In this document: positions 25,681-61,600 of the stretch, in pieces
How positions within the stretch are numbered: position 1 is the stretch's first letter
Layout: each line of letters opens with the position of its first letter
Assembly (NCBI GenBank): GCA_963971285.1
Contig: OZ020245.1
Span: forward strand, 23,078,983-23,142,982
Length of the DNA: 64,000 nt
Origin: Astropecten irregularis
Taxonomy: Eukaryota; Echinodermata; Asteroidea; Paxillosida; Astropectinidae
Direction: 5' to 3'
Made by a program: the position numbers and the translations under genes
Notes under the pieces: model-generated
The model's database searches: none
What the model was told of the DNA's origin: nothing
What the model saw: only the letters and a program-made list of their open reading frames with translations

Positions 25681-27993
<2,313 letters not shown>

Positions 27994-28090: not shown

Positions 28091-28154
28091 ATAGTTCTTT
28101 CTCCCCGACGGAAAATCATTAATAACAACGATTATTGCTGTACCCGTCGATTCA

Positions 28155-38608: not shown

Positions 38609-38912
38609 TATTTGGGAGGCTAATTATCCTTGTTCACAGCTGGGGTGCTGAATTGCGGAGGATGCGGCTACAATGTGATCGAGTTGCCGGCATTCATAGG
38701 CACCCTTGGCTGTCAGCCACATCAACCTATTATGAGATCGAAAGTGTTTGATTTTTGTGGAAAAAACCGGAAAACCCCGAGGTAAAAACCCTCGTAGCAT
38801 ATAGGAGAGAACCAACGCACGACTCTACTCATCACATAATGTCCAAAGACGGGATCGAACCCAGGCCACATTCATTTGATGAGAGGCCAGTGCCTAAAGC
38901 ACTTGCCACCTA
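38609..38912 (-). mobile_element. tRNA-derived SINE, family A, copy 3
   Basis: Reverse copy with the complement of the B box (GGGATCGAACCCAGGCCACA at about 38851). The body has CATAGGAGAGAACCAACGCA-like and TGAGATCGAAAGTGTTTGAT blocks. It ends at CACTTGCCACC, immediately followed by TAGGCCTA (38911-38918). Confidence 0.8.
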
Positions 38913-38918
38913 GGCCTA

Positions 38919-39917
38919 ATGAATTATAAGGGGTGGCATGATGTGCATGGATTCGGACTATACTTCATCTGATAATGTATATGCCATCATGCATTGGTAA
39001 ATTTCTTGCAGTATTTAAAGGGAGCATTATGATCTGCAAAGATGTGCGTTTTGGCTGAATTTGTTATACTATAAACAGAAGTGAAGGTCTTAAACTTCCT
39101 TACAGACGTTGTTTCATGTATCTCTTTACTTTTTGTTCATGATAGCAGAAATACGGCCGAAATAATCTTGCCCCCTCCGAATCCTTCACGGCTACACCAA
39201 GCTTTCGAAATGCTACTAAATCGTTCGGACGAAAGATCTTTTTAAAAGACACTAAATCTTGATTTTCTTGAAAAACCCAGGATCTGATGAATCAAGATTT
39301 CACATGGTGACTGTTTGCACTGTTTACGAACTGTTGAGTTCATTTTCTGTCTTAAACTGCTTTTTGGAGGCCTTGCAAATCATGTACGCTGCCTTTAAGA
39401 TTGTATACAGATTTCGTTTGTCAGTCAGCAGTCTGTCATTTGTTTGTTTGTCTGTCCGGCTTGGTCCGTCGTACATTGGTTGGAAGAGTGACAGTGTGTG
39501 CTTAAGTAAGAATCTTAACGCATAGGCCTACATGTACATTTATTGGAGGATAGTATCCATTTTATTTCATTCAATATTGATTGATCAGAATATACAATTA
39601 CTATAATATTTTGTTACTTATTATAAGATTTAACAAAAGACTTCAATTTAACATAATGGTGCTATTTTTATGCACATAGTAACGCACCCTATACTGTACA
39701 AGAAGTTCATTACATATTCTTACAATTTAGACAGTAGATAATGACCATTTAAAGAATTGTAGGCGTTCTATAATTTTAAATTATTATATAGACTTTTCAC
39801 GTGTGCTATCCAAATTCAACATTTTAACAATCTGATTTCACTTTTGTTTTTCGTAGAAGTTCGTGACGATGAAATAACTGCTTTTCCGATTGTTGCAGGT
39901 CCAAACAGCAGCACATT
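38919..39917. other. Intergenic DNA
   Basis: AT-rich. TAGGCCTA is at 39523-39530. The 88-codon ORF at 39259 has no recognisable domain. Confidence 0.45.
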
Positions 39918-40281
39918 TTAAAGGTAGTATCATACTTTGGTTTTTATCAAAGAAATACAGATTAATGGGCAAAAATATCAAGGAAGATACAGTCGCAGTC
40001 ATCGGTGAACATTTCAGTTCCATATACGGTGCCCACCTTTTGAGAAAACAGTGAAAACAGCCACAGTATTTTTTAAGTCTTTTCTCTTTTATTTCTTATC
40101 TTAAAAATAACAAACAGATTTTTGGTCGTTGTTTTACTAATTTCTGGATGAATACACCATTTCAGGCGGAATAATTTCAACGGTATGTTACTACCATCAC
40201 CATCTTCATACCATGTGAGTTATATGTAAATCTGTGAACATTTCTGTTTTGGTTTCTTACCAAAGTATGATACTACCTTTA
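39918..40281 (+). mobile_element. TTAA-flanked MITE, copy 5
   Basis: Full-length forward copy. It begins TTAAAGGTAGTATCATACTT and ends CCAAAGTATGATACTACCTT, with the right target decayed to TTAT. Confidence 0.85.
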
Positions 40282-40742
40282 TAGAAAAGATCGGAGGTAT
40301 ATTTGGGTGTTTAACACCTTTGTAGAAACTCACTTGGAAAGTTGGAAGTGATGAATTATTGTATATAAGGTAATGACTATTATAGTCATTATATCTGGTG
40401 ATATCAAATAGCACAGTGTCCTTCGCTTGTAGGTATATGAGCAATGGGCCTGCCATAGAATAATAGCGCTAATGGTGGGTTCACAATGGGCTTGAAATTT
40501 TGTGGGAGGGGCTTATAATAGAGAAAAATGGTTGTATCGCACTTTATTATGAAAAGTGACCCCAACACAACCGCTGCCAGGTGATGCCTCTTTATCTACA
40601 TTTGAGGACTGGATAATGGGCAAAAGAAATTGCGTAGATTGAAAAATAAATCAAAGAAAAATGCGTTTATCAGTTTTATCTGTAAAATTTACTCTCCTTT
40701 TTGTAATGATACGAAATCATAGAATGATCCTCCAAGCTCCTA

Positions 40743-41195
40743 TACAGGGTGTCCCCCCAAAAAAAATAAACCGCAAGAACTTGTGTCGAGAACTATTATA
40801 TAAAAATTTGAGCATAATTTGAATGAAATTGAGGGGGGGGGGGGGACTAAGACTGAATTACCCAACCCTCAAAACCAATTTTCACTTTTTTTAATGTGAC
40901 GAGTTTTAATAAATCAAATTAAATCAAATCAAATCAAATCAAATCAAATCAGATTTTTATCTTTCTTTCAATACACATAATGTGTATTGTGCAAATTTAT
41001 TTTTAAAGAGTACTTTTTCAATTTGTCATATTTTCGCAAATTTCAGCCGGCCCGATTTTGCTTAAATTCTACACGGTGATAGCCAAGACATGGCTGTATC
41101 ATATTAGCTGAATCTTGAAGTGATAAACAGTTTAATTTTAACATAATGGGCCCGTTCCCGACACAGTGTTGCGTTTTTTCTGGAACACCCTGAAT
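40743..41195. mobile_element. Tc1/mariner-type MITE
   Basis: The left end TACAGGGTGTCCCCCCAAAA and right end TTTTTTCTGGAACACCCTGA then ATA are inverted, with TA at both borders, as expected for Tc1/mariner targets. Near the middle an (AAATC)n array (about 40913-40951) expands the element to about 450 bp. No transposase ORF. Confidence 0.65.
40913..40951 (+). repeat. (AAATC)n microsatellite inside the mariner-type element
   Basis: About seven to eight AAATC units, the first imperfect. Confidence 0.85.
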
Positions 41196-41682
41196 AGACC
41201 TATATAATTTTCTATACACGTTCGATCAGGATTTGCTTACGGGTCTGTTTCAGCCTAGGGAGCATGTACTTCTGTTCACAGAAGTGAACAATTGTTGGGT
41301 TGAGTTTTGATCAAATGAAAGTCTTTTATAGCATTTCTTTCTAATGATAAAAATCTATTAAATATTTCGCCGCTATGATACACTCATCAAATCAAATTGG
41401 TCCACTGTTGCCCAGAAACCAGACAACTGTAACGTCGCAATACAATTGAATTTTATAAATAAGCCGACCAAACCCGTGGATGTACGTGAATTGGTAGTTT
41501 GCGTAGGGAGTTAACTTGCGAAAGTAATATTCCATAACTACCAATTATTATACTAAGTTGACTTAAGTATATTTTTCACACTCAGGCATAGGCCTACCCC
41601 TGCAGGGCATGCCTCTCTATGGTCCGAACGGGGTACATGCTCAACCCGACCCTAGTTGTACACAGTTACACGTATAGCAAGC
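41196..41682. other. Intergenic DNA
   Basis: Unique sequence. TAGGCCTA is at 41589-41596. No gene seen. Confidence 0.4.
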
Positions 41683-41696
41683 GCTTTCTCAAAGCT

Positions 41697-41730
<34 letters not shown>

Positions 41731-41898
41731 TTCGTCTCTGTTTTCATACGGTGAAAATATAGTTTGTGGTTTTCCATTGAAGCTGAAACTCTGTTGTCCT
41801 TTTCAAACCAGAGAGTCTACAGAGAAACTGCAGCCAAAAGCCTCTATTTTGATACCTGTAATTTTGAAATGGAGGCAGAGCCGGAGTCTGAAAAAGGC
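41683..41898 (-). mobile_element. MITE with (GGCTCC)-like long terminal inverted repeats, copy 2
   Basis: Inverted relative to the 13866 copy. The left arm CAAAGCTCGGCTCCGGCTCC extends into perfect (GGCTCC)n, and the right arm is GCAGAGCCGGAGTCTGAAAA. The interior (TGTGGTTTTCCATTGAAGCT, CAAACCAGAGAG, TCTATTTTGATAC) is the reverse complement of the first copy's interior. It lies about 470 bp past the stop codon of the homeobox gene. Confidence 0.65.
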
Positions 41899-41922
41899 CC
41901 TTGGTACCGTGGTCGTTTGTTT

Positions 41923-41928
41923 TTTAAT
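41923..41928 (-). promoter_or_regulatory. Candidate polyadenylation signal of the homeobox gene
   Basis: ATTAAA on the minus strand, about 440 nt downstream of the stop codon. It is the first AATAAA/ATTAAA-type hexamer I found on that strand after the stop. Nothing else supports it; the real 3' end needs transcript data. Confidence 0.2.
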
Positions 41929-42365
41929 AACAAGTCATATGACAACTTATAGTAACTTGCGAAGGCATGAATTTTGGCGAGAAACAATTTCGTATAAAAC
42001 CATTTTACTTACACAAGTCACAGCAGCTTTTGTTGTAACATTAGTGGTATTTTCTTTCATTACAGTTTTGTTAAAATCAAGATGCATCTTCTATCAAATC
42101 ACCATCTCGTTTCAAACCTTTGTATAATAATCCATGACAGGTACTTTACATACCCAACTTACACTGTAACTATTAATTACAACAACCATAATGAGCATGA
42201 TGGAACATAACTGCTACGCTAATCATTTTTCAGATGTACCCATTGTTGTCGGGATTCATTAAAACAAAACTGGAAGCATTCGCAATGGTTTCTGTACAAC
42301 TTTTTAAAGACAACCCACTGGAAAGCTAGTACAAGTTCAAACTGGCCAGAGATTGAATGTTTCTT

Positions 42366-42596
42366 TTAACGGTTGAACGAGAACGGGAGAGGGGTGAAAG
42401 CAGAGGCGCAGCCATCCACGGGCGAGGGAGACAGCGCCGGATGACCCATGGCAATCAGCGGGGAAGGCCCGCTAGCAGGTGCCGGTGAACTGCAGTGCTT
42501 CATCAGGGTCCCGTTGGGTGAGGATGGAGTCTCTTTGCTTGCTGCTTCTTTGTCGCGGCGTTCTCGGGCTCTCCGATTTTGAAACCAAATTTTAAC
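42366..42596 (-). CDS. msxlx: msxlx exon 3: homeodomain helix 3 and C-terminal tail
   Basis: Begins directly after a strong acceptor on the minus strand (pyrimidine-rich TTATCTTCATTTCCAG, 42597 upward) with codons for VKIWFQNRRARERRDKEAAS. It encodes homeodomain residues 45-60 and a 60-residue tail rich in Ser and Pro that ends FSFNR before TAA at 42366-42368. Phase 0 with exon 2. The splice falls between homeodomain residues 44 and 45, a position shared by many homeobox genes. The uninterrupted frame extends upstream into the intron but has no meaningful sequence there. Confidence 0.93.
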   Translation of the reverse strand, partial: VKIWFQNRRARERRDKEAASKETPSSPNGTLMKHCSSPAPASGPSPLIAMGHPALSPSPVDGCASAFTPLPFSFNR

Positions 42597-45500
42597 CTGG
42601 AAATGAAGATAACACAAAAGAAAAACAGAGATTTAATTGGTTTGCATCTTTTTAGAATTAGGCATATCCCGGATATGGCATTAGTCAGAAGTCATAAAGC
42701 TAATAAATATTTGTGTCGACTTATGACGTACGAGGTATTCATTGCATAATGCCACTATCTCATCATACATAATTATGCCGTTCATTTGACACATGAAATA
42801 TAATGTCGTTTATACGAAGATCAAAATAGTTCAAGTAAGTCGATGAAAAACCTTTTTACAACGTTTTAGCTAAATTAAATGTAATAATGTTCAAGTTTAC
42901 ACAAAATGTAACAATTAATATAGAATTGGTTTGTGGACCGGTGACAATGGGATGACTGCATAGAAATACCCCCCTTTGAAAATGAGTGTGGTTCTGAGAA
43001 AAACGGAAGTTCTGATTGAACGACACAAAGTTGGGGGCGCTGTTGAACAAGACTAATGACGCAAGCAATATTTAAGATAATAAATACGGGAAGAAAGTGA
43101 GGAATAAAACGGCATAAATAGGCTGACCTACGTTACATGGCATTCTGGCCAAAAAAGAGTTCTAGTTGAATGCAAGAAACATTACAATATAGAGGACAAC
43201 ATGGGTGAAGGTTACGTCTCGCCGTGAGGAAAAAAAACCCAGACGATATTTGTGATTTGAATTCCATCAATGTGTAACTCATTTTGGAATTGTGTAAATT
43301 TGCATAAAGCCAAAAAATCTGTCTGGATACACCCGAAACAGCAGTAGTGACGCTACAAACGAGCTAACTTTAATGGATTCAAGTTTGGATTGGCCCATTT
43401 GAATTTTAGTTACTGTTTTTTTAGTATGATAAAATATGATTTGTTGTTCAAAGTAATCATGTTTTGACAATGGCAAGATGTATGCCATGGCATCGCAAAA
43501 ACAAATCATTGCAATGCTATTATAAATATGGATAACTGCGAATAAACTGCTGGTAATTAAGCTTGAATTATTTACAAATCACTGTTTTCTGTTCGGTTAC
43601 TTTTTATGAAGATGATGAATCGACCATTCAGTTTCAAAATGCGCGAAAACTCACATGCTTTGGGGTATCAGGTGTATTAATATTTAAAAGTACAGTACAG
43701 GATTGGTAACATACCCAAACAGAAATATACACAGATTTACGAATAATTTACAGGGTATGAAGATGGTGCTAGTACCGTGAAAATATTTACGCCTGAATGA
43801 TGATATATCTATCCAGAAATTAGTAAAACAAAGATCGAAACCAGTTTTGATCTCGGGGTAAGATCAAAGCCATTCTTTATAAGTTTTATAAGAAAAACTG
43901 AATCGAGTTTTCGATATTTCCTCGTGAGTCATCAGATGTCCGATTGAGGTCAAATTTCTACATGCTTATGATGTCATGCACATGTTGGATCAGACAAAGT
44001 GTGAGTGCTGTTCTGTGATCTTTACCAATTATGTATTGTGCCTTTAAATCTATTTTGCAGTCCTTAGATTTAAAATGAAGAAACTTAAAAGCATTAATAA
44101 AAAGTATTCACAAGGCCAAAATAATCATATGTACGCGTAAGATAAAAGACGCAAATATTCATGGTAACAATCATTATAATCAGTGCGATTGAAAAAATTC
44201 ACTACTTCATCATAAAACTGCCGCGACGATAAAATTTTACGAGATTCTTGCCCTGCCCTCATACAAAAAAGAATCCTTGTTAAAAGATGGCCTTAATCTC
44301 CACGAGAGGCCTACATTAGTCATAGGGAGTTGCACACGTGAGCTATATGGGTTGATGAGCATTAGCGGCGTAGGCCTATAGATAGCAATGGGCTAGTACC
44401 CTATCACATGCATCGTGACGCTGCATGGAAGGATATGGGTACCAACGAAATTGCCATCGTTAAGGGGATATCATACTTTGGTTTTTATCACAGAAATACA
44501 GATTCATGGGCAATATATCAAGACAGATACAGTAACAGTCATCTGTGAAAATTTCAGTCCCATACGGAGCCCACTTTTTGAGAAAACAGTGAAAAAAACG
44601 GCCACAGTATTTCTTAAGTCTTTTCTCTTTTATTTTTGATCTTTTAAAAGATCAAAAAGATTTTCGGTCGTTGTTTTACTAATTTCTGGATAAATACACC
44701 AGGAGGAAAAATGTTAACGGTATGTTTCTACAACCACCATTTTCATGCTTTGTAAGTTATACGTAAATCTGTGAACATTTCTGTTGGTTTCTTATACCAA
44801 AGTATGATATTACCTTTAACTTGTTTAACCTTGTGGTTATTTGATAATTATAAAGAAACTTAGTTACTCTTATTTTTTTCGCTATGATGTCTTGCCTTTT
44901 GTTGTGATGTTTCTTTCTTTTACTTTTCCCTTTTTTTCTTTTTCGTTGGCTTTTTTTCTTTGCTTATATAAAGTTGTGTTTATGTCTCTGCTCCGATCCG
45001 CCGTTCGAACATTCAAGGAAGTACAGTGACTCATTTAAAACGACGATTGTATAATTGAGATCGGTCTCGATACGGCAAAGGGGATATTATTCAGAGGTAA
45101 AGAATATCCCAGTTATTGCCACGACTACGGAAAGTTGATCTCCGTGCGCCGTAGCCTCCATGACCGTGTGCCGTGAAACAAACAAAAAAGCCCCGCCACG
45201 ATGAGTGCGTCAGCATGGAATTCCCAGACGATTATTTTCCGTGCGGCAGAGTATCAACTAGCCAATAAACATACGGATCATGTCCGGGGTTTCCATATTG
45301 CGATGTTAACCCCCGTCTATACCGACCGAACCGACCGGGTTAAGTGGCCGGCTCGGGCCCGTGGACGACCCCGGCCCGACGTCTCAGGCTCGGGCGACGA
45401 GTTGCCTACTCTCTGCTAACTTGTTTATGACATGTCAAGTCAAGTGAAAGGGTGGCTCAATACCCGATAGGCTGTGTATACTTTTTTTTGTATACTTCCT

Positions 45501-48500
45501 CGGCAGACTCTGCAAGAGTTCACAGAAGTACATTATCTGGCTGGCTGATGACCTTTACGTCTTTTAGGATAACAACAATTCCTTGAATTAAAAAGTTATG
45601 AAAACTAACACCGCTATACTCTCAGATCAGTTGTTCAGCCTCATTTTTTCTCAGTGACTCTTTTTTTAAAGCTGAGCAAAAAGAAATGTTGACTCAGCCG
45701 GGAATAGAACCATACACCCATGTACTAAATTATAAACGATGTTCTATCCCTATTCCTACCTTCATCCTACATGTTCAATTGTGTCATCTTTCTGAACACC
45801 ATGGCCCTAAGTCATCCATAGCTCTACCATCGTTCCCAACTCTAGGACCCTATGATCTGGCCTTCAATCATATCGTCAACTAATTGTGTAAGGGGCACAG
45901 AATCTACAACCCAACGGTAAAATTCCTTACACGGTGAAGTTGTCTGTCCGTGCGGAGTGAACGTTAGCGACAGTTCTTTAAATTGTTTCTGTCAGCTTTT
46001 TAGGTTGAAACCGAAATTTTATCAATTATGATTCCAAACACAGCTGAAAAGTGTACAAGAGATTCAACAAAGAGTCCCGCGGACACTACGCTCTAGTTTC
46101 GCCAAAAGACCCATGGAAGGAAAGTCATAAAATATGCAAACGTTATTTTCAGACGGTTATCGGACAGAATGACAATCATCTCAATCCGTAGATTTGTTCC
46201 ATATCATTCTCCAATTGATTATTATCTATAGGCCTTAAGGAGGCTGGCATTCGACCTCGTGGGAGTTCTGGAGGACCTTTCTTGAATGTCTTTCATATTT
46301 AAAACGATAAAACGTCCCAAAGATTATAGATCAATATTGGAAAGATCAATATTTGCACGCCTTAAGTTCTACCAAGACTGACGAATCAACAAAATGAGCA
46401 ATGATACCAAAGCATTCAGCCCATCAGCAGAGCTAACCGAAAATCCACATTACAATAACTTGTGGAGGATCGAGAGCTCCGCCGGTTACCGGAGGCTATT
46501 TGGCCGAACATGTATAGCTAACAGGTACGGAACATGTATAAGGATTCATGGCCACTGCACATTGATCGTTCATATACCGTGTTTTGGAACCGTCTCCCCC
46601 GCCCCACGGGCCTAGACCAGCAAGGTTGGCCTGCTCTGGTCCGTCGCCGAGCGTACGGCAACGGCCAGCCGACGGGTCTGGTGTAGCCAATCTAGATGCA
46701 ATCAAGTGTACTAACGAGGTAACTCGATTGATTCCCTTGGGCGGTACACCGCCTCCAGTTCTCTTAAATAGGTTGGAATGGTGTGTTAATGCTTCTGTTT
46801 TACCGATGTCCTACATTATCATGTTGTTTGTGGTTTGGTGTTTTCTGCGGTACACGGCAATTGGGGAGGAAGGGTTAGTCAAGCAATATTTAATCAGAAT
46901 TGATGTCTGAAGATCAGGTTTCTAGACTGCTTACAATTAAGAGGCGAAATGTTTGTTTTAAACGTCCTCCACTCGGGAATTGAGGACATCTCTATTGGAA
47001 TTTCTCGGTAGTAAAGGTTGTTTAAAGCAGATCACATTTATTTCGTTTTTGCAACACCAACACGGATTTTGGCAAAAGTATCAGACTTATGGGAGACACG
47101 CATACTAGAAAGATTTTCATGAATTTTAGTATATGATTTTTCTCATCTTACAAATGTACTTGAATTTTTAGACTCCTGGTAATCCATTCTCATTTTCATT
47201 AATGACTACGTTAAAGAGACAACAGTGGGCGTAGTAATATTGTAAGAAAATTGTGAATTATGAAACTTTTTGATTTGTCATAAGAACAATTATAAACACA
47301 GAAACTTTGGCCTCGGGCTATTTGAGAGCTATAGATATTGCTGAGAATACACAATATTGAAACTAAACACATATTAGCCTTATTATTCATTCATGTGAAC
47401 AGGGAAAACGTAACATTAACACATACAAAAAGACACTCCCAATATACAGTAGCATAATATACCTCATGTGGTAATAGTAAGTAAAATTGGAGGAGAATTA
47501 CTCGGAGGGCAATTTGCTGGGGGCCGACTGACTGATTGAACCTTATAGCTCGATCGGTCCATCCACATGGTCCATCCGAATGGCATGGCTTTCAATCAAG
47601 TGAGCATGGGTGTATTAGCATAATTACTCCAGCTGCCAATCTACATCTGACGGTCAAACCTAGACGATTAGCTTGATAACCACCGGGGACAACCCTATGC
47701 ACCACTCGTGTATTTGTATCGCCAACTGAACGTAGCGGTGTGAATTAACCCGTCAGGGGCCTGGGCAAAAGACCTGGCCGATGACAGGCACAAGGAGCTT
47801 GGAGGAGATCGCCCACGGAGCGAGGACTCCATCATACAGAAAACCAGTATAGTCTGCACTCTGACTTCTATAATCCTTGTCCACCACACTGAACTCCGGG
47901 CCCAGAATTTTAGGGCGGGCCATGGAGAAATAAACTCCGGCGCGCATGGACCGCTTTCACTTCCCACCCGTCCCATCCGAGCCACCAACTGAACCCCGCG
48001 CCGGCCCGACATCCCAACCTCACCGGGCATTGTCGGTGTTCACCCACCGCGGTGTGGTAACAAGGACCACCAACCATGGAGGAAGCAGTGCTTGATCCCC
48101 CCCAGTGGCGTCGCCAAGGGGGGGGCCAGGGGGGGCACGTGCCCCCCCTGGAAAACCTCGTGCCCCCCCTCGTGCCCCCCCATTTGAAATTTGGGTTGGT
48201 GAAAAAAATATATAATATATAAAAAGTTTGCCCCCCAAACGATTGCTTGTGCCCCCCTTGTGCCCCCCCAGACTCAAAAGTCTGGTGACGCCACTGATCC
48301 CCCCATGCACCAACCAACCAATTCTCGGTCCCCCGTATATAGACCTGCCTCACTTAACTAAAACTGTCACTTATAATTAGCCCAAGAAAAAAAACACTAA
48401 CCACCCTGTTGTTTTTGTTTAAATAATGAGGAAACGAAGTGGCAAACAGGCCAGGCGATAAGTTGATTAACAAGGAGGGTAGGAAGCGAGATTGGAGCGT

Positions 48501-51500
48501 TGATGGATGTAATTTATGCCAATACGCGTAGCTTCAATGGGTCTAGCTACCTAATTACATTAGATAGAGCATTGATGCCCATAAATCACCACGTAATGAT
48601 AGGGGTCTAGTGCAACCAGTGTTGCGCAGTCGATGCCTTTTTGGTGAAGTTCTTTTTGCGCTAACAAAATTAGGCTACACGAAAGAATTATCTCTGTATA
48701 GGCAATTTAACTGGTTAAGTAGACATTAATATTCTATATCCAACTTCTAAGGCTGATTCGTTCAAATAGAAAAGCACTCTGTCGTTATGTTTTCCTGTTA
48801 AACACTCAACGACGAAAAGATTCAGTTCAAGCAAAGTTCAACTTTCAGTACAATTTCGCTAAAACCTTTTAATTTTACAAAAATCGGATATCTGATTCGA
48901 GAAATGAGTATGGGTATGTTCACACGAGCTGCTAACTTCGCTGGTAACTTAACAGTAACAATTTCTGGTCATTGGAACGCAGTTTTAGCTAATTTCGCCC
49001 AAGTCAGACGTTGAATACAATCATCCATAGACTAGAGCCAGGAACAAACTAGCTTTATGATTAAGCAAGAATAGTACCCCATGTTGTTTTAAACTTAAAC
49101 TGGAGATCATTCTGATGATAAATTACTCAAAATTATTCCGGGATACGTGCATGACATTTCGAGATTTTCTTGAATACAGTTTGCCATAAATTCTCACCAC
49201 TATTGCAGTATGATAACCAGACGTTCGTTGCATTGGTCCTGCAGACAAAGGGTGGTACAGTATGACCCTGGTTATGTTCTTGTCATTTTAATTGGAAACT
49301 ACGGTACATTGATAAACAAGTGGATAGTGTTGGATGACTGTATGGAGATTGCCCTTATGATAATTGACTGTGAGACAGTCGTAATGAGCTCCCTGTAAGA
49401 TCAGGCCTTATCTCGAGTTGCCGACTTGCCGAGATTAGGGAAGAATTTTGATGAGAGAATTTAAAGACGAAGGAGCTGTCTACCGTCTTGAGTAAATCGC
49501 GGGGCGATATCACGGTGTATACATCACACAGCCGTTGTGGTTGATCCCTATATACTACGCGGTGTCTTTCCTAATTACACCCTCCACTATACCAACATGC
49601 CTGTAGTATACCTAAGGTGACAGAAGGATGCTAATTGGTTGTTTTCGTGAAGAAAAGACAACTGCGTGTGAAATATTTAACACCCTCGATAATGATATCA
49701 GTTGATTGGGAATGAGTTCGACTCTGGCTCTGTGCAAAGCCGAATTACAACCTTGTTTTTTTTTCAGAGAGACAGAAAGCCTTTGAGAAAGATCATGCTA
49801 GGGGATCGAAACGTCAGGCCCTCCTACACTTCCAAGTATTTTATACATTTCAGGTAATTAGTTTGGTTGCTGAACAGTTTGCAGCAAGTGCCTTTGAGAA
49901 AGATCCTGCTAGGAACGATACGCGTCAGGCCCTCCTAACTCTAAGCATTTGATCTATTTTAGGTCATTTTGGCTGATGTTCAGTTTGCAGCAGTTTATTA
50001 CTTGTATTGAAGTTTTGGGAGATAGAAACTATATTGATCAGACCTTCAGAAGGGTTTGAGGGCGGGGCGGGGTAGGACCGGGGCCTTGTACTTGTACTCA
50101 CCCTGTTTTCAGAGAGGTTTAGGGCGGAGGAGAGCTCGGCCACGTCTATACTGCTGAGATAGTGCGTGCATCGGAACTTCTGCTCTAAGGTGGTGACTTG
50201 TGACGGAGAGAATGGGACCCGTGGATTGCGACCTAACTTCCTCTTCTTCGCTCCGTCCTTCCTTTTGGCTCCTGGGCACGAGGAAATAAAGTACAAATTC
50301 AAAAACCGATCTCAATGAACTAGGTTTAGTATTTTTTTAGTATAATTAATTTTAAAGGATTGCATTTGTTTGTTGACGGTAGTATCATACTTTGGTAAGA
50401 AATCAAAACAGAAATGTTCACATGCAGATTTACGTATAACTTACAGGGTCACAGTGAAGATGGTGGTGGTAGAAACATACCGTTAAGATTCTTCCGCCTT
50501 AAATGGTGTATTTATCCAGAAAATCTTTTTGATCATTTAAAAGATCAAAAATAAAAGAGAAAAGACTTAAGAAATACTGTGGCCGTTTTTCACTGTAAGT
50601 TCTAAAAAAGTGGGCACCGTATGGAACTGAAATTTTCACAGATGACTCGGTTACTGTATCCGTCGTGATATTTTTGCCCATGAATCTGTATTTCGTTGAT
50701 AAGAACCACCGTATGATATTGCCTTTAAGGATTGGTATTTCATATTTCATATTCAAAAAAGTTGAACTTAATTATAATTTAGACCGTAAAGTAAACATCA
50801 TGGCCTAGACTTCCCAATCCAACTATTAAGTTATCTTTTCAATTAGGCCTATGAGTTTATGCCGCCATAGTTCAAAGATTTCATTGTTCACCATGTCATT
50901 GATGCGTGGTCGCTGTTTACAAAAAAAGGGAAACATATTTTGTTTGGTTTCCGTATAGTGGAGTTACCCGGAGGAACCTCCACGGAGTTTAACTGACGCC
51001 CGTCCCCTGCCAGCACCATTCTCAGCACCCTAACCTTCTCTCGATATTGTGCCGGCGATCGTGATGTCGTCCAAACCAGGTTTTCGTGACACGAGGCAAT
51101 AACCATCCCCCAAAACCAACAATTACACCCTCCCACAACGGAAGCATAAAGAAACCCTTTCAAAAAGGAGACTGACTTTATCACAATATAAATATATAAA
51201 AAAAAACTATGATCGAATCGGAGTGACAAATATACCGAGCTGTAAGCTATCAATAAAAGAGATTTCTGTAGCAAAAAACTGTATAAAGGAAAGAAAAAAG
51301 GCAGAATAATATCAGGCTGCTTTTACACCTGGTAGCATAGGGCCTAAGTCTGACGAGAAATTAGGTCGGGCACAGCAAACCGGAACGGGACCACTTCAAC
51401 CCCGCGGCAATGTTGTTGTTGAAAATTCCCGTGGCGCGGTATAAAACACGACAGCTCTGTGTCGCTACAACCACACAATCGTTTACAAAATACACTTTCA

Positions 51501-54500
51501 GAATTCAGGTCAGTCAGAATAATGATAATCTGTGTATAGGCCATTTTGACGATGAAGATGATGATGATGTTGATTTGATGAAATCAGGCACTGATTACGG
51601 TGATGTTTATAATATAAGTATGGTAACTTTGAGGTTAATGGGACTTGGTATAGTTGGTATATATAATAGAGGCCTCCAAACGCCTGACCTTATTAGGCCG
51701 ACCCTGTCAACAATAAATCATACGCGAAAAATGATGACCTAGTACTATCAAGAGAAACTTTTGTTGAGACTTCTAACTTAATAAATGACCTCGGCAAATA
51801 TGGAGAGAGTTAGGTCAATAAGTGTTCTCTTATATAGATACATACAGGTGTATGTGGGAATCAAATGTCACTGGTCGAAGGTCTTGTGTCTTGTTATATC
51901 ACCTTATATGGACGGCTCATGTCCTATAGCAAAATGAGTGTTTGTATAACTGATGTCCTCGATAGTTTGCCGATTTGGATGAGTATACTTGGTAGTATCA
52001 TACTTTGGTAGAATACCGAAACAGAAATCTTCACAGATTTACCTATAACTCACAGTCACAGGGTATAGACCTAAAGATGCCGTAGAAACATACCGTTAAT
52101 CTTTTTCTGTCTTAAATGCTGTAGTCATCCAGAAAAGAGTCAAATCAATGACCAAAAACAATTTTGATATTTTAAAGAGAAATTATAACGGTGAAAAGAT
52201 TTTGTAAAAAATTATGTGGGCGTTCGTCTTTCACTGTTTCCTCAAAAAGTGGGCACCGTATGGGACTGAAACTTTCACAGAGGGCTGTTACTGTATCTTC
52301 CTTTATATTTTTGCCCATGAATCTGTATTTCTTTGACAAAAACCAAGGTATGATATTACCTTTAAGACAGATCCCCACACGCTGCATTAAAAAAGGCGGC
52401 CACGATGACATATCAGTATTGATCACGTGACTCAGATCCTCAATTATGCCTAAAATTGTTACATGTATTGCTCTTATCTTTTTACTATTTTGGAGCTATA
52501 GTTGGATTGAACAAGTTGAATCCCGATGCATTCTGGGATGTTTTTTTTTTTAACTTTTAAGAGTGACATAATAATGATTTCAATTGAGATGTTTGGTTGT
52601 GCAGATGTTTCCCTTCTAAATCCATTCAATTAACCGCGTGTATAATGGTGAACATGAACACACACAAAACACTGTCTGCTGCAAAATCTATAGCATGCGC
52701 ATTGGTCCGTTTCAACTGAGGGGCCATGTTGCTCTCATGTCGCCTTTTTCATATAAGGGGTTCGCCCGCTTTAAAGGTAATAACATACTTTGGTTTTTCA
52801 TTCATGGGTACAAATATCAAGACAAATACAATAACAGTCATCTGTGAAAATTTCAGTCCCATACGGTGCCCACTTTTTTGAGAAAACAGTGAAATACGGC
52901 AACAGTATTTCTACAGTCTTTTCTCTTTTATGTTTGATCTTTTAAAATATCAACAAGATTTTCGGTCAATGTTTTACTAATTTCTGGATAAATACATCAT
53001 TTCAGGCGGAAACATTATAAAGGTATGTTTCTACCACCACCATCTTCATACCCTGTAAGTTATACGTAAATCTGTGAACATTTCTGTTTTGGTTTCTTAC
53101 CAAAGTATGATACTACTGTACCTTTAAAGGTTTTGACAATTAATGGGATCTTTACAAATAACAGTCTCTAAACTGTCTTTTGCTAATGAGGTCGTAAGTC
53201 AGCGTGTTTGTATAATTATATTGACCGAACAAGTGCTGTAACTGTAAAAATGTGCCGTCGTCCCAAGCTATAATGTTGAAAGATTCTGTTTAGATATTGA
53301 CTTAACTTGGTGCCAGTACTTCTGGAGGGAACACCCATACCCCCTACACGCTAATCGATAGGGGGAGCCCAAGCTGTCCAATCGCCACTGGGTGTGGGGG
53401 AATCTATTGTACCCCCATTGAGACAAGGGGGGACGTCTGGCCATGGTCTGACTGATTGAAGTGACAGTCTAATGATGAAAGAAGACCCAATCAACAAAAG
53501 GGAGCAGACAGCCACATCAGTCAAACTCCTTTCTTGTCTTCGGTTTGGGGTTTTGTTTCCCTTTTTCAGTCAGGAGTGACTTGGCGGCCATTTTGGAAGG
53601 CCATTTTACAGATTGACATCTTTTGAATGGTTGTCATGAAATATATCAATATCGTCTTGTCAGGCAAGTAATCCAGACAAAACCAGCGAACATGCAATCA
53701 CCATTTATACACTGACCTATGTATGCCATCTTTATACGACACTTTGAAAGGACACCCGTTTTTATCAATTTATTCGAAGACATTCTTGTTTTTGGTCTTT
53801 AGTCATATAACTGTCGGATACAGTTTTGCATTCGCTTTTAGCGTATCCCGTCGTTTAAATTTTACAACAAATCTCAATATTATAGGCACATCTTTTTTAA
53901 AGGTAATTCCATGCTTTAGTTTTTGTCAAAAGAAACGCAGATTCATGGGCAAAAATATCAAGAGATTACAGTTACATTCATCTGTGAAATTTCCAGTCCG
54001 AAAGGTGTCCACCTTTTGAGAAAACAGTGAAAACGCTCACGGTATTTTCAAATATATTCACAGGAGTTTTGGTGGTGGTTGATTCGACTTATTTTTTCTG
54101 GGTAAAAAGAGCATTTCATGCCAGATAAATTTTAATGGTAAGTTTCTACCATCATCTTTACACCCTGTAAAAAGTGAGATTTATGTTTTGGAATGCTACC
54201 CACCTTAAAAGGAAACTGTAAAATCTGTACTAACGCGATTGTTTTCCACTCGCCAAGCATTTCTATGAACACTGTATATTTACCCACATCTAGATTAGTC
54301 CGATAAAGTTGCCAAATATTCATTTTTAGAAAATGCTATACATAATTTTGTATAAATCGTCCATAGCTCACATAGACGTTTCCAGTCATGAATACAATAT
54401 TATATCTATTTTTACTGAAAAACTTTCACAATTGATCAAGCAAAGGTAACGTGTATCACAAAATAAAAAAGCAGGCGATCAAATTGTTTTCACTATTACA

Positions 54501-57500
54501 AAATAATGGTCGACTGTCTTCCTTGTATATACCTCTATGAATTGGATGCGCAAAGTGAGAATGCCAGCAAAACAAATCAGATTCTTCTGCGCCTTGCGAA
54601 AGTAATACTGGCGAATTACTCCGCGAGTGGATTAGAGTACAGTAACGGGACAGTCAGAAGGTAGAATGCCGACCGATCACAGTCCCCTAAGTTATAAAGG
54701 ATGGTAATATAGGTAATGTACAGTGTGCGTAATCCAGAGCAAAGACATTCTAAAAGAAATATCATACTTTGGTTTTTATCCAAGAAATACAGATTCATGG
54801 GCTAAAATATCAAGACAGATACAGTAACAGTCATTTGTGAAAATTTCAGTCCCATACATACAGTGCCCACTTTTTGAGAAAACAGTGAAAAACAGCCACT
54901 AGTATTTCTTAAGTCTTTTCTCTTTTATTTTTGATCTTTTAAAAGATCAAAAAGATTTTCGGTCGTTGTTTCTAATTTCTGGATAAATACACCATTTCAG
55001 GCAGAAACAATTAACGGTATGTTTCTACCACCACAATCTTTATACCCTGTAAGTTATGCGTAAATCTGCGAACATTTCTGTTTAGGTTTTTTTGCCAAAT
55101 TATGATACTACTTTTCATAATTAGGCTCAAAGTTCAACTAGGATTTACTTAAAAATTATATTAGCAAGGATATGCACTGTGCTATATATGCACAATTTGA
55201 AAACCAGGCTGTTAGTAATTTGGATTTGATCTCAATATTTGATAATTTGAAACAATTTGGAAATCTCCCTTAAACGCGTTCATCAGAAGCCTCACTTTGT
55301 GTTTTCACTCAGACCTGTGCAGTGTATATAACGAATTGATTAAAGTAACATTACACTACCGATAACTTACAGCCCGGTGCCATAAATCAATTTTTGTTTA
55401 TTTTGAGAAATCGAGCAAGCTGGCCACTGAGTCAGCTCTCTCGTTTTCTCGCGTGTTTTTTTTTCTCTGATTAATTAAAACTGAGTTGATCTTCTTAATA
55501 TCTGCTTATGAGACATGCTTGATGTTCAGATATAGGTTAGTACACATAACGTCATCGCACTTCAATTAATTTCGACAAACATTTGCAAAATTGTTAATTT
55601 ATTGAATCTATACCAATTCTTCGGGTGTTCAATGTAGGAATTCAAACGTATAATTATTTGATTTGCTTTTCAAGTCGAGAAGTGTCGTTGGATGTTGTAC
55701 ATGTAATAGTATGTCGTATTGTAGGCCTGAAGGTGCAAGTGAGCAGCGAAAATGGTTTTACAAGACACGGGACAAAACGCCATTTTCCCCGCGGCGTGTG
55801 ATCTGTCACGCTGGCCTACGCGAAAATGATCATGGACGATGGTTTATAAATAATAAGCGATGACTGGTGCAAGCAAGAAACATGCGGGGTCTGATTAAGC
55901 AAGACAGCTTCAGACACTAGAATAAACCAGGCCAGTCCGTTGCCGTGGTTTCTCGTCAATTAAGGAGATAATTAATTACTGTACATTCTCATAAATTCAA
56001 CATGACGTACTGTGATAGGACTGTTGAGATAGTATCTGAAAACTAGGTATGATAGTAATGCAATGTAACAAAAACCAAGCAGGGGAAATTGTGATTATAA
56101 TAAGAACTTCATCAAAATGGTTGGATATTCTCCTTGTCTATATCTATCTAAATATCGTGTCTTTATAGGGAGCGATAGCTTATGTTCCAATTCGAGACAC
56201 TTATGGACAGTTTAGCTTGCCGTCGAGTTTAGTCTTCTATAGTACGAATGAATTTGAAATGTCTATATCACCTCAATGGTTCCTAAACTAAAGATGCGAT
56301 ACCCTCGCCAAGGTTTCTATGTTATCAATTCGTAAGTAAGTGTTATGTCGATACTATGGAGAGATATTTTTAGGAATCATTTTGAAACTGTAATCATCAC
56401 AGTTCTCACCTCGTGTCGGTTTCATCATAGAGCAGGGATCAAATTAATTTTTCAACATATAAATCTTATGCCCAAACTGACATTTTTTGTTCCAAACCTC
56501 AAAAGATTCATCCAGCAGGTTCTAAAATGCCCATTTTCAATTCAGGGCGTCAAGTGGCACAGTTGGTCCATGGCATTTCCTTCCGATTTTTAATTCTAAA
56601 AAATTACACCGTTTTGGGCACCTGAATCACCTTGGTTAAGTGCTTGATACAAAGTTATCGCTGTCGTCACTTTCGGCATTGTGTAATATATTACGAGAAC
56701 CCATTTCATTTCCAAGACCATGATAGAAAGATTTGGCTTATCATGGGATAACATAGATTCAGTAGTGTGTATTAATGTGCTCACTTCATTTTCATATTTT
56801 CATATTAGGCCTTAAATTTTCTTCGCGCTACAAGATCGGTAGCGTGTCTGCTGAATCCATAAGTGGTTAGTAGTGTGCATGGATATGTTGCTGTCAATTT
56901 GTAGCTGTAAATTTTTGATGATTTTTTAAAATGATTGTAGAGAATTAAAACAAAGAATTCTGTCAATGTTATGAATAATATTTTTTCTTAGAGTTAGAAG
57001 GGCCTGACGCGTTTCGATCCTATAGCAGGATCAAGCTAAATGGTATTTTTTTGATAATATTTTTTGAAATATCAAGGAAGATACAGTGACAGTCAGTGAT
57101 ATTCCCAGTCTCATACGGTGCCCACTTTTTGTGAAAACAGTGAAAGATTCACACAGTATTTTAAAATCATTATACAGGATTTTTGATCTTCCGATGATCA
57201 AAACTGTTTTTTGGTCATTGGTTTTACTCTTTTCTGGATAAATACAGCATTTCAGGCAGAAAAAAATTAACGGTATATTTCTACCATCACCACACCATCT
57301 TTATACCCGACGTTATATGAGTAATTCTGTGAAGATTTCTGTTTCGGTAAAAGTATGATAGTACCTTTAAGTTTAACCGTCAAGAGAAAAAAAAAGAAGA
57401 AGACTCAAAGCAGATAGATAAAACTTTAAACTGTTGAAGAGAATTTTGAAAATAATTTCTGTCACGGTTTTATCGATAACATTAATTGAAATGCATTTTT

Positions 57501-58591
57501 AGACAAGTGATGGATTTTTCAAGTGGGCTGTTCTCTTTCGAACATAAGCCGTTGAAAATCCTAGGAAAATAATTATCAGCGCATTTGTCCAATCTATAGT
57601 TTCAAAATAAATTTCAGACAATCCAGAATGGTTCAAGAAGTTACATTACACGAACAATTGTTTGGGAGTAAGATTGCTCAATACAGGTATTCCGAGCATG
57701 TTATGATAATAATTAGGCCTATAACCCCAAAACAACAGGTTATCGGAAATGTTTCGATAAAAACGAATTGGAAGCCATGTGTTATGATGTTAACTAAGAA
57801 GAAAGAAATAAAAACATAGATTGCAATTTGTTTCAGATGCAAGTATTAGCTTGTGGGGGCGTCCAGCATTGGCCTTATGTAAAGTTTGCATCAAAAAGTA
57901 TAGGCCTAAGTAAGTTTTAACCCTCTAAAAAGTAAAGAACAAAAATGAAGAAAATGTTTCAATTTCACTTACTTGGCAGACGAGGTGGCTTGTATCTTGT
58001 GCACTGCAACCACGAAAACCGAGTCAGAGGATTGTCCGTGTCTTCCTCATCCCCTTTGGGTGAGTTCAAACATTCTGTTTTGACTTGCACTGACGGCTCG
58101 TGCTGGTCCTCTACAGTGGAATCTTCGGCGACTGTCGCCGTCTTGCACGGCGTATCGTCCGGGCATTTTTCGCTGCGAGGGGAGTCCTCGTCCCGGCCCA
58201 AAATGCCGGCGATGGAAAAGTTCGTGACGCCCTTGCGACGGGGCGAGGTCGCGAGGGCCGTCCGGTAATGGGCTGCTCCGTGCAGGTGATGGGAGGGTTG
58301 ATGCTGGTGGTGATGCTGCTGCTGCTGTAGTTGATGCTGCTTGGACAGGAGAGCTGGAAAGTCCGAGTCCGTTCTCTGCGAGGTCTGCAGGTAAGCAGCG
58401 GAGAAATTGGCCATGGAGAAGCCGACCGGGAGGTGCGGTGGTACCCTCATGAGGGACAGGTTCGGGTACGGTATCTGACCCCCGGACGCTGCACCGGGCA
58501 CGCCGATGGAGAGGAGTCCGCTGCAGGGTAGTCCGGCCTGGAAAGCGGCTGGGTAGCCGGTACTAAGCAGAGCCATGCTCTGTCTTCTCAT
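42366..58591 (-). CDS. msxlx: Msxlx (MSX-like-X) homeobox transcription factor, three exons, 339 aa
   Basis: The joined coding sequence 58591-57973, 50271-50102, 42596-42366 is 1020 nt and ends in TAA. A sequence-specific nuclear DNA-binding factor is expected. Residues 125-131 (FSIAGIL) match an EH1-type Groucho/TLE-binding motif, so repression is likely. Residues 85-104 are Gln/His-rich. VKTE at 170-173 fits the SUMO-acceptor consensus. RFSWLQCTRYKPPRLPR (191-207) is a conserved pre-homeodomain block. Basic residues 209-218 look like a nuclear localisation signal. The homeodomain is residues 220-279, with R5, F8, L16, F20, W48, F49, Q50 and N51 all present. The tail 280-339 is Ser/Pro-rich. 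NPRVPF, KF, YLS, AELSSALNLSE and VKIWFQNRRA place it close to Msx, but the arm and RARERRDKEA end differ from true Msx, hence Msxlx. In ambulacrarians this gene is part of the nkx2.1-nkx2.2-msxlx-pax1/9-foxA pharyngeal cluster (known from the literature). The assignment is from recognition, not a tree; Msx proper or another NK-like class is the alternative. Confidence 0.85.
43705..43870 (-). mobile_element. TTAA-flanked MITE, copy 6 (truncated relic)
   Basis: Reverse copy. GGTAACATACCCAAACAGAA, CAGGGTATGAAGATGGTG and ATCCAGAAATTAGTAAAACA match the family, but both the terminal repeat and the second half are missing. The most decayed copy in the window. Confidence 0.6.
44460..44819 (+). mobile_element. 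TTAA-flanked MITE, copy 7
   Basis: Full-length forward copy bounded by TTAA (44460-44463 and 44816-44819). At its centre (44633-44658) is a perfect 26-bp palindrome made of TTTTTGATCTTTT and its complement. The element lies antisense to msxlx in intron 2. Confidence 0.85.
48095..48304. mobile_element. hAT-type MITE with perfect 8-bp target duplication
   Basis: CAGTGGCGTCGCCA at 48103 and TGGTGACGCCACTG ending at 48296 are inverted repeats. The element is flanked on both sides by ATCCCCCC (48095-48102 and 48297-48304), the 8-bp duplication expected of hAT transposition. The interior is GC-rich at both ends (runs of GTGCCCCCC and complements) around an AT core. Clean ends and target sites suggest a fairly recent insertion into intron 2. 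The ORFs through it (minus, up to 147 codons) are spurious. Confidence 0.85.
49781..50010 (+). mobile_element. Penelope-like terminus fragments, family 2, two tandem copies
   Basis: The first copy has GAGAAAGATCATGCTAGGGG then ATCGAAACGTCAGGCCCTCC (49784-49822). The second has GAGAAAGATCCTGCTAGGAA then CGATACGCGTCAGGCCCTCC (about 49896-49935), followed by the same tail as the 22826 copy (GGTCATTTTGGCTGATGTTC, CAGTTTATTACTTGTA). The GATCCT/AGGATC stem followed by GAAAC-GTC is hammerhead-like. Head-to-tail arrangement is usual for terminal repeats of Penelope-like elements. It ends 92 bp short of exon 2. Confidence 0.5.
50102..50271 (-). CDS. msxlx: msxlx exon 2: homeodomain N-terminal arm to helix 2
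   Basis: 170 nt. The acceptor ...TTTCCTCGTGCCCAG lies at 50272 upward. The first two bases GA complete an AGA (Arg) codon with the last base of exon 1, restoring the RLPR motif. It codes for AKRKDGAKKRKLGRNPRVPF, homeodomain helix 1 (SQVTTLEQKFRCTHYL) and helix 2 (SIDVAELSSALNLSENR), and ends AACAGG before GTGAGT. The exon ends at homeodomain residue 44, phase 0. Confidence 0.93.
50375..50728 (-). mobile_element. TTAA-flanked MITE, copy 8
   Basis: Reverse copy, starting ACGGTAGTATCATACTTTGG and ending at TTAA 50725-50728. A deletion removed part of the centre, although the ATCATTTAAAAGATCAAAAA palindrome is still recognisable. Left TTAA lost. Same strand as msxlx, about 100 bp inside intron 1 from exon 2. 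Confidence 0.8.
51990..52365 (-). mobile_element. TTAA-flanked MITE, copy 9
   Basis: Reverse copy from GGTAGTATCATACTTTGGTA to TTAA 52362-52365. Full length with scattered changes. Lies 405 bp from copy 10 in the opposite orientation, so the pair could fold back in the pre-mRNA. Confidence 0.8.
52771..53127 (+). mobile_element. TTAA-flanked MITE, copy 10
   Basis: Forward copy between TTAA 52771-52774 and 53124-53127. A small deletion removes the block after the left inverted repeat, and there is a 4-base CTGT-like insertion in the right repeat. Confidence 0.85.
53897..54208 (+). mobile_element. TTAA-flanked MITE, copy 11 (diverged)
   Basis: Forward copy starting TTAAAGGTAATTCCATGCTT, internally deleted and with a degraded right repeat (GGAATGCTACCCACCTTAA). 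One of the older copies. Confidence 0.7.
54750..55117 (+). mobile_element. TTAA-flanked MITE, copy 12
   Basis: Forward copy with both inverted repeats (ATATCATACTTTGGTTTTTA; CCAAATTATGATACTACTTT), though the TTAA targets have mutated (left TAAAAG). The perfect central palindrome is at 54928-54953. Confidence 0.8.
56990..57046 (-). mobile_element. Penelope-like terminus fragment, family 2, copy 4
   Basis: On the minus strand: TTGATCCTGCTATAGGATCG followed by AAACGCGTCAGGCCCTTCTA. Short fragment in msxlx intron 1, with an intact GATCC-GGATC stem and GAAAC. Confidence 0.5.
57067..57370 (+). mobile_element. TTAA-flanked MITE, copy 13 (5' truncated)
   Basis: Begins inside the family at AATATCAAGGAAGATACAGT, so it lacks the left inverted repeat. 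It ends AAAGTATGATAGTACCTTTAA with TTAA at 57367-57370. Counting this one, thirteen copies or fragments were located. Confidence 0.75.
57973..58591 (-). CDS. msxlx: msxlx exon 1: N-terminus with EH1-like motif
   Basis: The first ATG after the in-frame stop at 58715-58717 is at 58591. A second ATG at 58576 (MALLSTGYPA) has the better Kozak context (A at -3, G at +4), so translation may start there, five residues later. The frame stays open upstream of 58591 to the stop but has no other ATG. The exon codes for 206 residues plus one base: hydrophobic N-terminus, Gln/His tract, FSIAGIL motif, acidic linker (GDEEDTD) and the WLQCTRYKPPRLP block. It ends CCAA before GTAAGT. The first exon is markedly more GC-rich than the surrounding DNA. 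Confidence 0.92.
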
Positions 58592-58639
58592 GGGAACAGA
58601 TTCGCGTGCAGATCGCAAACCGAGGTGACACCGTGGTGG

Positions 58640-58645
58640 TATATA
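58640..58645 (-). promoter_or_regulatory. msxlx: Possible TATA element of msxlx
   Basis: CCCTATATACC on the minus strand, 50 nt upstream of the first ATG. If used, the 5' UTR would be only about 20-40 nt. It could equally be part of a longer 5' UTR; only transcript 5' ends can tell. Confidence 0.25.
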
Positions 58646-61600
58646 GGGCTTTGGAATGTTTCCACTTTGTACACGAAGAGTGTGACAGAACAGTACAACA
58701 ACTAAACATACATACTACACGCACAATCTGATAAAAAGTATCGCACTACCATCACTCCCTTAAAAAAAAACCCAACTCGTATTCAGACAATGATCAAGTT
58801 GGCCCGAGAATTGTATCCGTCTGTGGTTTATCGAAGTAGGCGATCTTGTTAGGAGATTCCTGAAGATCTCGGGTCTTTATAAGTAAACAAGTCCACTCGT
58901 TGAGAAGGAGAGAAGACCGATGCTTGCAGAGGATATTTACTCTTCACCGTGTTCACCGTATATCACGGTCATGGTTGAACAACCAGCCAGCCAGTTGCGT
59001 AGCTTTGTTGCTACAGTTGGCTACACGCAGCGCAAGAATTGGTTGGTCGTTGCTCATGCGCAGTAGGGATTGATTGTAAACATACAGCACGGGCAAGTTT
59101 CCGTTATCATTTTTACACCGTGTTTTCCAATTGCCCGTGGTGGGTCATTGCGCTCCACATCCAGGCAGATATTCAACTCCTTTTCTCGCTGAATGCTGGC
59201 AGGACCATCATGCATGTGTACACAATGAACAAGAACTACACTTGTTGTTCTGTTGTGTAGCAAAGCAAAAACAAATGGGGACATTATTACTAACATCGTC
59301 TTTAGTCATCTGAGGAGATCTATAGCGATGGGAACTTTGTTAACAACAAAACAAACAAACCTTGTTTACTTTAGAAAACTTTCTGTACATCAACGTGAGA
59401 TGCACCCCAGAACACTAATGCCATTGATGCAAGAAATATAAATTATGCAAACCTGTGCAGGGTTGAAAACAAAATGGAAATGTGAAACTAATTGGTTGCA
59501 CAGTGATTACATTATTGATTTGTTTATGTTGTGTTTAAAACAAGGCCGTCGCTTATATTAGTTATAGCTCGAATGGACATTTTCATTTCAATTAACAGAG
59601 AAGCAACAGAAATGGCATAATTTGCAAACAAGGGTTTTTTGGTTATCTCCTCTTGATTTGGCATAGATATAGGACTGAAGTTGTTTAGAAAGAACCATTG
59701 CCAAAATCTAACGAAACAATATAAGTATCCTTTAGAAATTGGAAAGTAGGATTCGTTCCATGATTCCAAACGGATCTAAATCGATTACAGAGATGTCAAA
59801 ACCGTCTCACGTCAGCGCAAGCAGTACAGTCACGGAAACTGTAAAAATTGGTAAAGTTTTTTTTAAAATCTAGTTTCAAGTGGACAAAATATTATGATGT
59901 TGCAGTCAGGCCATTTGCTCCGTGATACCCTCTGATTATTTTAACTTCATTCTGGTATCAGCTATAAAAGGCCAGCCATTTATTTGGCTATGACCAGATT
60001 TGCAGAATTTGGAGCATTTTTTTGTTACTCCCAAGTTCCTTGCAATCGGGCTCACCTCTCAGTCGGCTGATTTAGAGGGAAAAGCACACCCCAAATTGTC
60101 TGCATGGTTGGGCTTGTAACAGCATCACTGCTTGGCCTGGCACTGGCACCAACGCAGGACAATGATTCGTCTCATGTTTCAACCAGCCTTTCCGTGAAAT
60201 GCGCTCCCGATCAGAATTGCAATTCTTCCCCCCCAAAACGAGTCGCCCCCAAAAGAAAAAAAGAAGAAGTATATCTCCCCACCATCATACAATGTTTGAA
60301 GCGCGGTTTCCAGTAACGGAATTATTTACCGTGGATAGTAGATGATGAAGAGGGCCCCGGACTAAAGAGAAAGTGGTCTGAAACTAAACTCCTGAAATAA
60401 TTAGGCGACTGGCGACGGGCGCGGGCAAGCGGGGCTTGTCTCGGGGACATACTGGCCGCTTGATTCACCGAAACGCGATCGCAATGACATCGGAGGGGCC
60501 GCGTCGACTGCGAATCGACCGGGGGATGGTATATACTCGCTGTATATCATGGCTGAGTCACCGGCCGCAAAGTCATGGTTTGGGAAGTCATTAGAATATC
60601 AAATAAAAGGGAAGTTCTGCCGAAATCATGGCTATCTCATCGAACCCTGGTAGACAAATAATTATAATCATTCAAAACAATCAATAAACATGTTTTGAGA
60701 AATAAAGTACTTATGTTTCAATTGTTTTATCAATTCTAGTGGGTCAAGTCGGGTGAAATACGCTCAGTATAAGAACACTCGGAGAATTGCTGTTGATTTT
60801 TCAAAATGAATTCTCATGGTCAACCACTTTGACAAACCTCAGTAATAGAGCCATGTGAGTAGATGACGAAACATCAATTATAACCCTTTTCCAGGAACTT
60901 GCAGATTTTCATTGTGAGTTTTAAACAGCTAAGACTTCTTATAGAACATGTCAGTTAGATACAGACGACGACTTAGACAACAAAAAAACCGGTGCGGGAG
61001 ACATATTGCTCTGAATTCAATTTCTGATTTCAAGTAGACCGACCTAATTTTCCAATTTTCTAAGAAAAACAATATATACCATTTAGAGAGACCTTTATTT
61101 GTAGGAAAAGATAATTTGAACTCATTAAACAAAAATGTCGGTCTATACTGACCTATAGGCCAGTCATCAACGACTCAGCACAGCCCCGTCAAATTATTGC
61201 CGTATTTTCGTCAGCGGATGACTATCACAGCAATTGAAATATTGAACGAAAATGGAGAAAGATAAGGGGGGGGGGGGTGCATGGGGAGAGGGAGAAGAAA
61301 AAAAAACCTGGAAATGTAATATCTGAACCAAGAAATGCGAGTCTCGGCCGCAAGGTTGGATGGGATGAGCATCAGCGCCGAGGATTTATACCCATCATCA
61401 GTCCCCAAGATGGCAAGGCACACTCGGGCCTGGCGAAGGTTACTATTTTCAATTTAGAAAATTGTTCCAGGAGCGATGCTTGATATGACACGGACATTCG
61501 ACCTCAAAGCTAATTCATATCTTGGCGACGTCGCGTGAGCCGAGCACTAATCACCGCAGTGTGTGTGTGTGTGTATCTACAGGAGCACACACGATGAGAG

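Follow-up and report, generated by a model that had tools for sequence, protein, structure and literature searches.

Does a 64 kb stretch of the Astropecten irregularis genome (C8:23078983-23142982, contig OZ020245.1, hereafter the window; the assembly comprises 475.7 Mb in 168 contigs) carry a genuine Msxlx homeobox gene? Msxlx is an ancient developmental control gene of animals that was lost in vertebrates, a loss claimed in the initial annotation of the window and stated in PMC2982225, PMC13088399 and PMC10065570. We conclude that the window gene is almost certainly Msxlx, that it is intact, single-copy as far as a genome search can see, and in its ancestral place within the pharyngeal (NK2) gene cluster, and that its product is most likely a repressor. 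We thus see a further, clear-cut instance of a known gene and not a new kind of gene. The initial annotation also called the class little studied, which is only partly true, since expression has been described for amphioxus, for acorn worm regeneration and for Tribolium.

On the minus strand of the window, three open reading frames (ORFs) join through GT-AG introns into a protein of 339 residues, with the exons, phases and consensus splice sites that had been annotated (Table 1). The codon at the exon 1/2 junction is R207, which lies 13 residues upstream of the homeodomain and supplies the R of RLPR, restoring that motif across the border as had been proposed, and the exon 2/3 border falls, again as annotated, between R44 and V45 of the homeodomain. 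All three exons are open, with the stop at its expected place, and their GC content is 54-60% versus 40% for the window; exons 2 and 3 each match a typed MSX1 homeodomain (tblastn E 8.6e-11 and 9.8e-6). Under a simple consensus score, the donors rank 4th and 1st among the 923 GT dinucleotides along that strand of 42300-58800, and the acceptors rank 6th and 1st among its 824 AG. The context is poor at the first in-frame ATG, 58591 (C at -3 and A at +4), and better at the second, 58576 (MALLSTGYP; A at -3 and G at +4), so that on context alone the second is perhaps to be preferred, which would give a product of 334 residues. Separately, 11 diverged stretches on both strands, taken from the 25 longest of 38 inverted pairs, apparently belong to one interspersed repeat, and 7 of the 11 lie inside the two introns.

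A close comparator is the amphioxus gene (AmphiMsxlx), whose three exons were cloned with primers printed in PMC2982225. Five of the six primers, read in the fitting frame, encode YKPPKL, RKDGSK, LNLSEN, RARERR and PVSFTY followed by a stop, and at the matching exon places the window gene has YKPPRL, RKDGAK, LNLSEN, RARERR and PFSFNR followed by a stop. In both species YKPPxL closes exon 1, RKDGxK and LNLSEN stand in exon 2, and RARERR and the terminal peptide stand in exon 3, within a common three-exon plan whose borders fall at YKPPxL and at homeodomain 44/45; the two peptides inside the homeodomain, LNLSEN (positions 38-43) and RARERR (positions 53-58), are identical. Between primer positions, exon 2 spans 161 bases in amphioxus and in the window alike, and exon 3 spans 210 bases in amphioxus versus 207 in the window. 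Among 40 homeodomain rows, LNLSEN is whole only in the window gene's own row, with Gsx next at 5/6, and RARERR, or even four of its six residues, is likewise confined to that row, in a comparison where 13 of the 40 rows (12 stopping at position 44 or 53, one stopping at 57) are too short to show the motif whole. No full-length Msxlx of another species was found in the PDB (best 60 of 118 matches listed) or in viral contigs, where a scan with the complete protein yielded 61 pattern matches, none of them a relative, and the peptide FQNRRARERR was not found by a text search of the literature. Drosophila CG15696 is named Msxlx in PMC10726417 and a Drosophila Msxlx is described in PMC13088399.

The genomic neighborhood also bears on the assignment. 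The order on C8 is nkx2.1, nkx2.2, Msxlx, cnga, pax1/9, slc25a21 and foxa, with every match on the minus strand over 490 kb, and nkx2.2 and nkx2.1 are the closest other homeobox matches to Msxlx on C8 among the matches listed. An ancestral deuterostome order of xrn2, nkx2.1, nkx2.2, msx, cnga, pax1/9, slc25a21, mipol1, foxa and egln3 has been inferred (PMC11175523), and the seven genes checked here agree with the published order of this pharyngeal cluster (PMC11175523, PMC7978419). The homeobox gene of the cluster is called msx in PMC11175523 and msxlx in PMC7978419, and the C8 locus agrees with the latter naming. The annotated Msxlx-type identity is supported by the amphioxus primer peptides and exon lengths, by the presence of a separate true Msx in the genome, and by the place between nkx2.2 and cnga-pax1/9.

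Several points weigh against this assignment. The predicted class is drawn from linkage, from exclusion and from the short peptides that the primers encode, and the splice junctions and start codon are predictions. The sixth amphioxus primer (exon 1 forward, (G) GCA CTC CTA TCC CAC TTG, encoding ALLSHL) fits ALLSTG (residues 7-12) and ALLSKQ (residues 80-85) of the window protein equally, at 4/6 each, and the amphioxus exon 1 probe of 514 bases differs from the window stretch to YKPPRL, which is 597 nt if the primer corresponds to residue 7 and 378 nt if it corresponds to residue 80. The CNGA, SLC25A21, PAX1 and FOXA queries used for the cluster were typed, rival subfamilies being compared for FOXA alone, and the cluster comparison takes in seven of the ten published genes. 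The homeodomain tree is by itself weak evidence and cannot prove class, because no full Msxlx of another species is among its rows. The homeobox search of the genome listed 100 matches, and 150 of 163 candidates were scored; the main tree has 40 rows and 60 columns (37 other genes of the genome, the window gene, MSX1 and NANOG), leaving out L035, L036 and L062-L066 (POU, LIM, Cut or other types by resemblance) and L069. This tree, of the sort that the initial annotation had proposed, places the window gene, the genome's own Msx and MSX1 in one group with mixed support (56 bootstrap, 98.8 SH-aLRT), and a first tree of 31 rows, built without nine exon-split genes, gave the window gene the same neighbors without support. 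A grouping of the window gene with NK2.1/NK2.2 is not rejected (p-AU 0.14 on 60 columns).

Of the alternatives, the one that survives best, though it is very improbable, is that the window gene is the invertebrate orthologue of NANOG, an idea put forward for acorn worm Msxlx in PMC10065570, in which case the class would have changed beyond recognition in vertebrates and would not have been lost. NANOG also has a phase-0 intron at homeodomain 44/45, but all ten of the further homeobox genes that were read, each chosen since its match ended there, have the same phase-0 border, which so says little; for the same reason the 44/45 intron was rejected as a marker of the Msxlx class. Nine of the ten we take, by resemblance, to be Vax-like, Emx, Mnx, Hox2, Bar-like, Noto, Hhex, Cdx and Dlx, and the tenth is L069. 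The Msxlx of P. flava is reported to be closest to NANOG (PMC10065570), against which a clade of the window gene with NANOG is marginally rejected in our tree (p-AU 0.0487, with one typed NANOG row and 60 columns). Two other homeodomains of the genome are split after about position 53 (L061, C24:8821977-8822335; L060, C14:17795479-17795837), and these are candidates for the Nedx, NK7 or Bari types, with no class assigned.

Still less probable is that the window holds a second, diverged copy of true Msx and not a gene of a separate Msxlx class. Msx is the closest homeodomain outside the Msxlx class, and the nearest solved relative of the protein is Msx1 1ig7 (E 3.5e-14, among the PDB matches listed, the best 60 of 118). 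A search of the genome with the window protein gave 31 matches, its own three exons first and then other homeobox genes, led by true Msx with 50% identity over 74 residues; because only its own exons precede the other homeobox genes, Msxlx appears to be single-copy, as far as this search sees. The motifs FSIAGIL, VKTE and WLQCTRYKPP stand in the order of FSVGGLL, VKAE and WMQSPRFSPP in a typed MSX1, so that the eh1 and WxQ motifs would be common to both genes. The true Msx lies at C18:13691523, and its homeodomain is unsplit and identical to that of human MSX1 at 56/60 positions (the MSX1 sequence being that of 1ig7 with three typed end letters), whereas the window homeodomain is split at 44/45 and shares 33/60 positions with the genome's own Msx, which makes it anything but a near-identical, unsplit Msx homeodomain. 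The window peptides match amphioxus Msxlx, and the gene is linked to NK2 genes and not to the C18 group, whose members we take by resemblance to be Msx, NK3, NK4 and Lbx. Msx and Msxlx also share a phase-1 intron just upstream of the homeodomain: in the genome's own Msx the acceptor, picked by eye, reads TCAAATCCAG with the border before GTACC and is likewise phase 1, exon 1 not having been found within the 5 kb read at the C18 locus, and in human MSX1 the intron splits codon R151, with c.451 on one side and c.452 on the other (PMC4451150).

As improbable as the Msx reading is a pseudogene, a homeobox relic that is dead or mis-spliced, or a set of ORFs joined by chance. The model is a prediction and its long introns hold several interspersed repeats, but the three exons are open and GC-rich relative to the window, the splice sites are among the best-scoring of the region, the exon lengths equal or approach those of amphioxus and the stop is where it is expected.

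Taken as Msxlx, the window gene most likely encodes a transcriptional repressor that is sequence-specific and similar to Msx. The protein has a single homeodomain, at residues 220-279 (Pfam Homeodomain, E 2.8e-20), with matches to three other Pfam families under their cut-offs. It keeps I47, Q50, N51 and R5 of the arm, and since homeodomains with these residues are expected to bind a TAAT core, the product should bind TAAT-type sites. Upstream, when residues 1-206 were shuffled 2000 times, neither the pattern FxIxxIL of the eh1-type motif FSIAGIL nor the W motif arose in any shuffle, and a VKxE-type site arose in 125 and means little. Because eh1 is a known docking motif for Groucho/TLE, FSIAGIL should recruit these corepressors, and repression is the likely output. 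A point against this step is that MSX1 is said to bind Groucho through its homeodomain (PMC13241535), making an eh1 route tentative even for Msx. Expression of Msxlx has been described in the anterior neural tube and left anterior gut diverticulum of amphioxus (PMC2982225), in the dorsal midline of the regenerating acorn worm (PMC10065570) and in spots in the head lobes of Tribolium (PMC13088399). By analogy with these animals, the window gene is probably active in anterior neural and foregut domains that are small and short-lived. The analysis shows the exons, the consistency of their junctions, the class and the linkage; we infer transcription, splicing, the DNA target, repression and the expression domain.

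Table 1. Features of the Msxlx gene, the window and the surrounding C8 cluster. Coordinates are window positions unless preceded by C8.
Feature	Coordinates	Strand	Remarks
Exon 1, coding part	57973..58591	-	619 nt; residues 1-206 and first base of codon 207; donor gtaagt, phase 1
Intron 1	50272..57972	-	7701 nt, phase 1
Exon 2	50102..50271	-	170 nt; from the second base of codon 207 through codon 263; donor gtgagt, phase 0
Intron 2	42597..50101	-	7505 nt, phase 0; splits the homeodomain at 44/45
Exon 3	42366..42596	-	231 nt including stop; homeodomain residues 45-60, C-terminus PFSFNR
eh1-type motif FSIAGIL, residues 125-131	58199..58219	-	putative Groucho/TLE docking site
VKTE, residues 170-173	58073..58084	-	putative sumoylation consensus, weak
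WLQCTRYKPP, residues 194-203	57983..58012	-	resembles Msx1 WMQSPRFSPP (typed)
Homeodomain residues 1-44	50102..50233	-	exon 2; Pfam
Homeodomain residues 45-60, VKIWFQNRRARERRDK	42549..42596	-	exon 3; Pfam
Interspersed repeat stretches inside Msxlx introns	43703-43774, 44512-44813, 50455-50728, 52068-53116, 53892-54082, 54745-55092, 57066-57292
Interspersed repeat stretches outside Msxlx	1340-1890, 9962-10244, 11129-11376, 39913-40276
Tandem array	14342-15140		39-bp unit x 20.5
Tandem array	25252-25682		37-bp unit x 11.8
Tandem array	27840-27993		ACA x 51.3
nkx2.1 homeodomain	C8:22954661	-	homeobox search; 167 kb from Msxlx
nkx2.2 homeodomain	C8:23053655	-	homeobox search; 67 kb from Msxlx
Msxlx	C8:23121348-23137573	-	window gene
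cnga-like cyclic-nucleotide-binding exons	C8:23158966-23163073	-	50-54% to typed CNGA
pax1/9 paired box	C8:23247058-23247444	-	96% to typed PAX1
slc25a21-like exons	C8:23310122-23315884	-	50-86% to typed SLC25A21
foxa forkhead	C8:23444845-23445102	-	89% to typed FOXA, 71% FOXC, 65% FOXD

Outside the exons, about 34 kb of the 64 kb window was scanned with Pfam in all six frames (1-5000, 5001-10000, 18001-23000, 28001-33000, 33001-38000, 37501-42300 and 59001-64000), and no family passed its cut-off there; in the 42 kb 3' of Msxlx this means no Pfam family in the 29 kb scanned. Matches below the cut-offs to TARP, Patched, New_glue and Trypan_PARP were taken as chance. Typed histone, NK2, Pax1, FoxA and Msx queries found, beyond the Msxlx exons, just pieces at E 0.35-0.87 in the window. 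An Rfam match to the histone 3' stem-loop at 16702-16747 on the minus strand scores 34.7 against a threshold of 34 bits, and tblastn with the typed histones found no histone gene in the window; beside the match, a CTGA...GAAAC stem arrangement recalls a small ribozyme, and no ribozyme family reached the Rfam threshold in the window. A tRNA-Thr with anticodon GGT lies at 29752-29824 on the minus strand, an anticodon that we take to be unusual for animals; the locus may be a tRNA-derived repeat. Elsewhere in the genome, homeodomains that we take to be of Hox1 to Hox9/10 type occupy C14:15.45-15.82 Mb on the minus strand, and three presumably of posterior (Hox11/13-like) type occupy C14:19.50-19.60 Mb on mixed strands, so that the Hox cluster looks to be broken by about 3.7 Mb; this set of Hox types would suit an ambulacrarian, perhaps a sea star.

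The one-strand, ancestral-order cluster on C8 belongs to an animal in which gill slits are probably absent, which raises the doubtful, if conceivable, suggestion that something else, for example shared enhancers, holds it together over 490 kb; candidate sites for such enhancers would be the two 7.5 kb introns of Msxlx or the 42 kb that lie 3' of it. The cluster of the sea urchin is in three parts, one of them inverted (PMC11175523), and that of the sea cucumber A. japonicus is altered in order (PMC5638244), and these broken and reordered clusters, as reported there, argue against such a hold and indicate that it is not general in echinoderms.

The window Msxlx is real, intact and an ordinary representative of a class that is known but rather neglected, and its value lies in a confirmed gene model, in the intron and motifs that it has in common with Msx, and in the uninterrupted run of cluster genes around it. 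Comparisons of invertebrates, which have retained Msxlx, with vertebrates, which have lost it, gain from it a clean example with full linkage, and it ties Msx and Msxlx together by the phase and position of a common intron and by motifs outside the homeodomain. Its place inside an unbroken run of the cluster would make the role of Msxlx testable in an animal where the supposed gill-slit function is probably absent.

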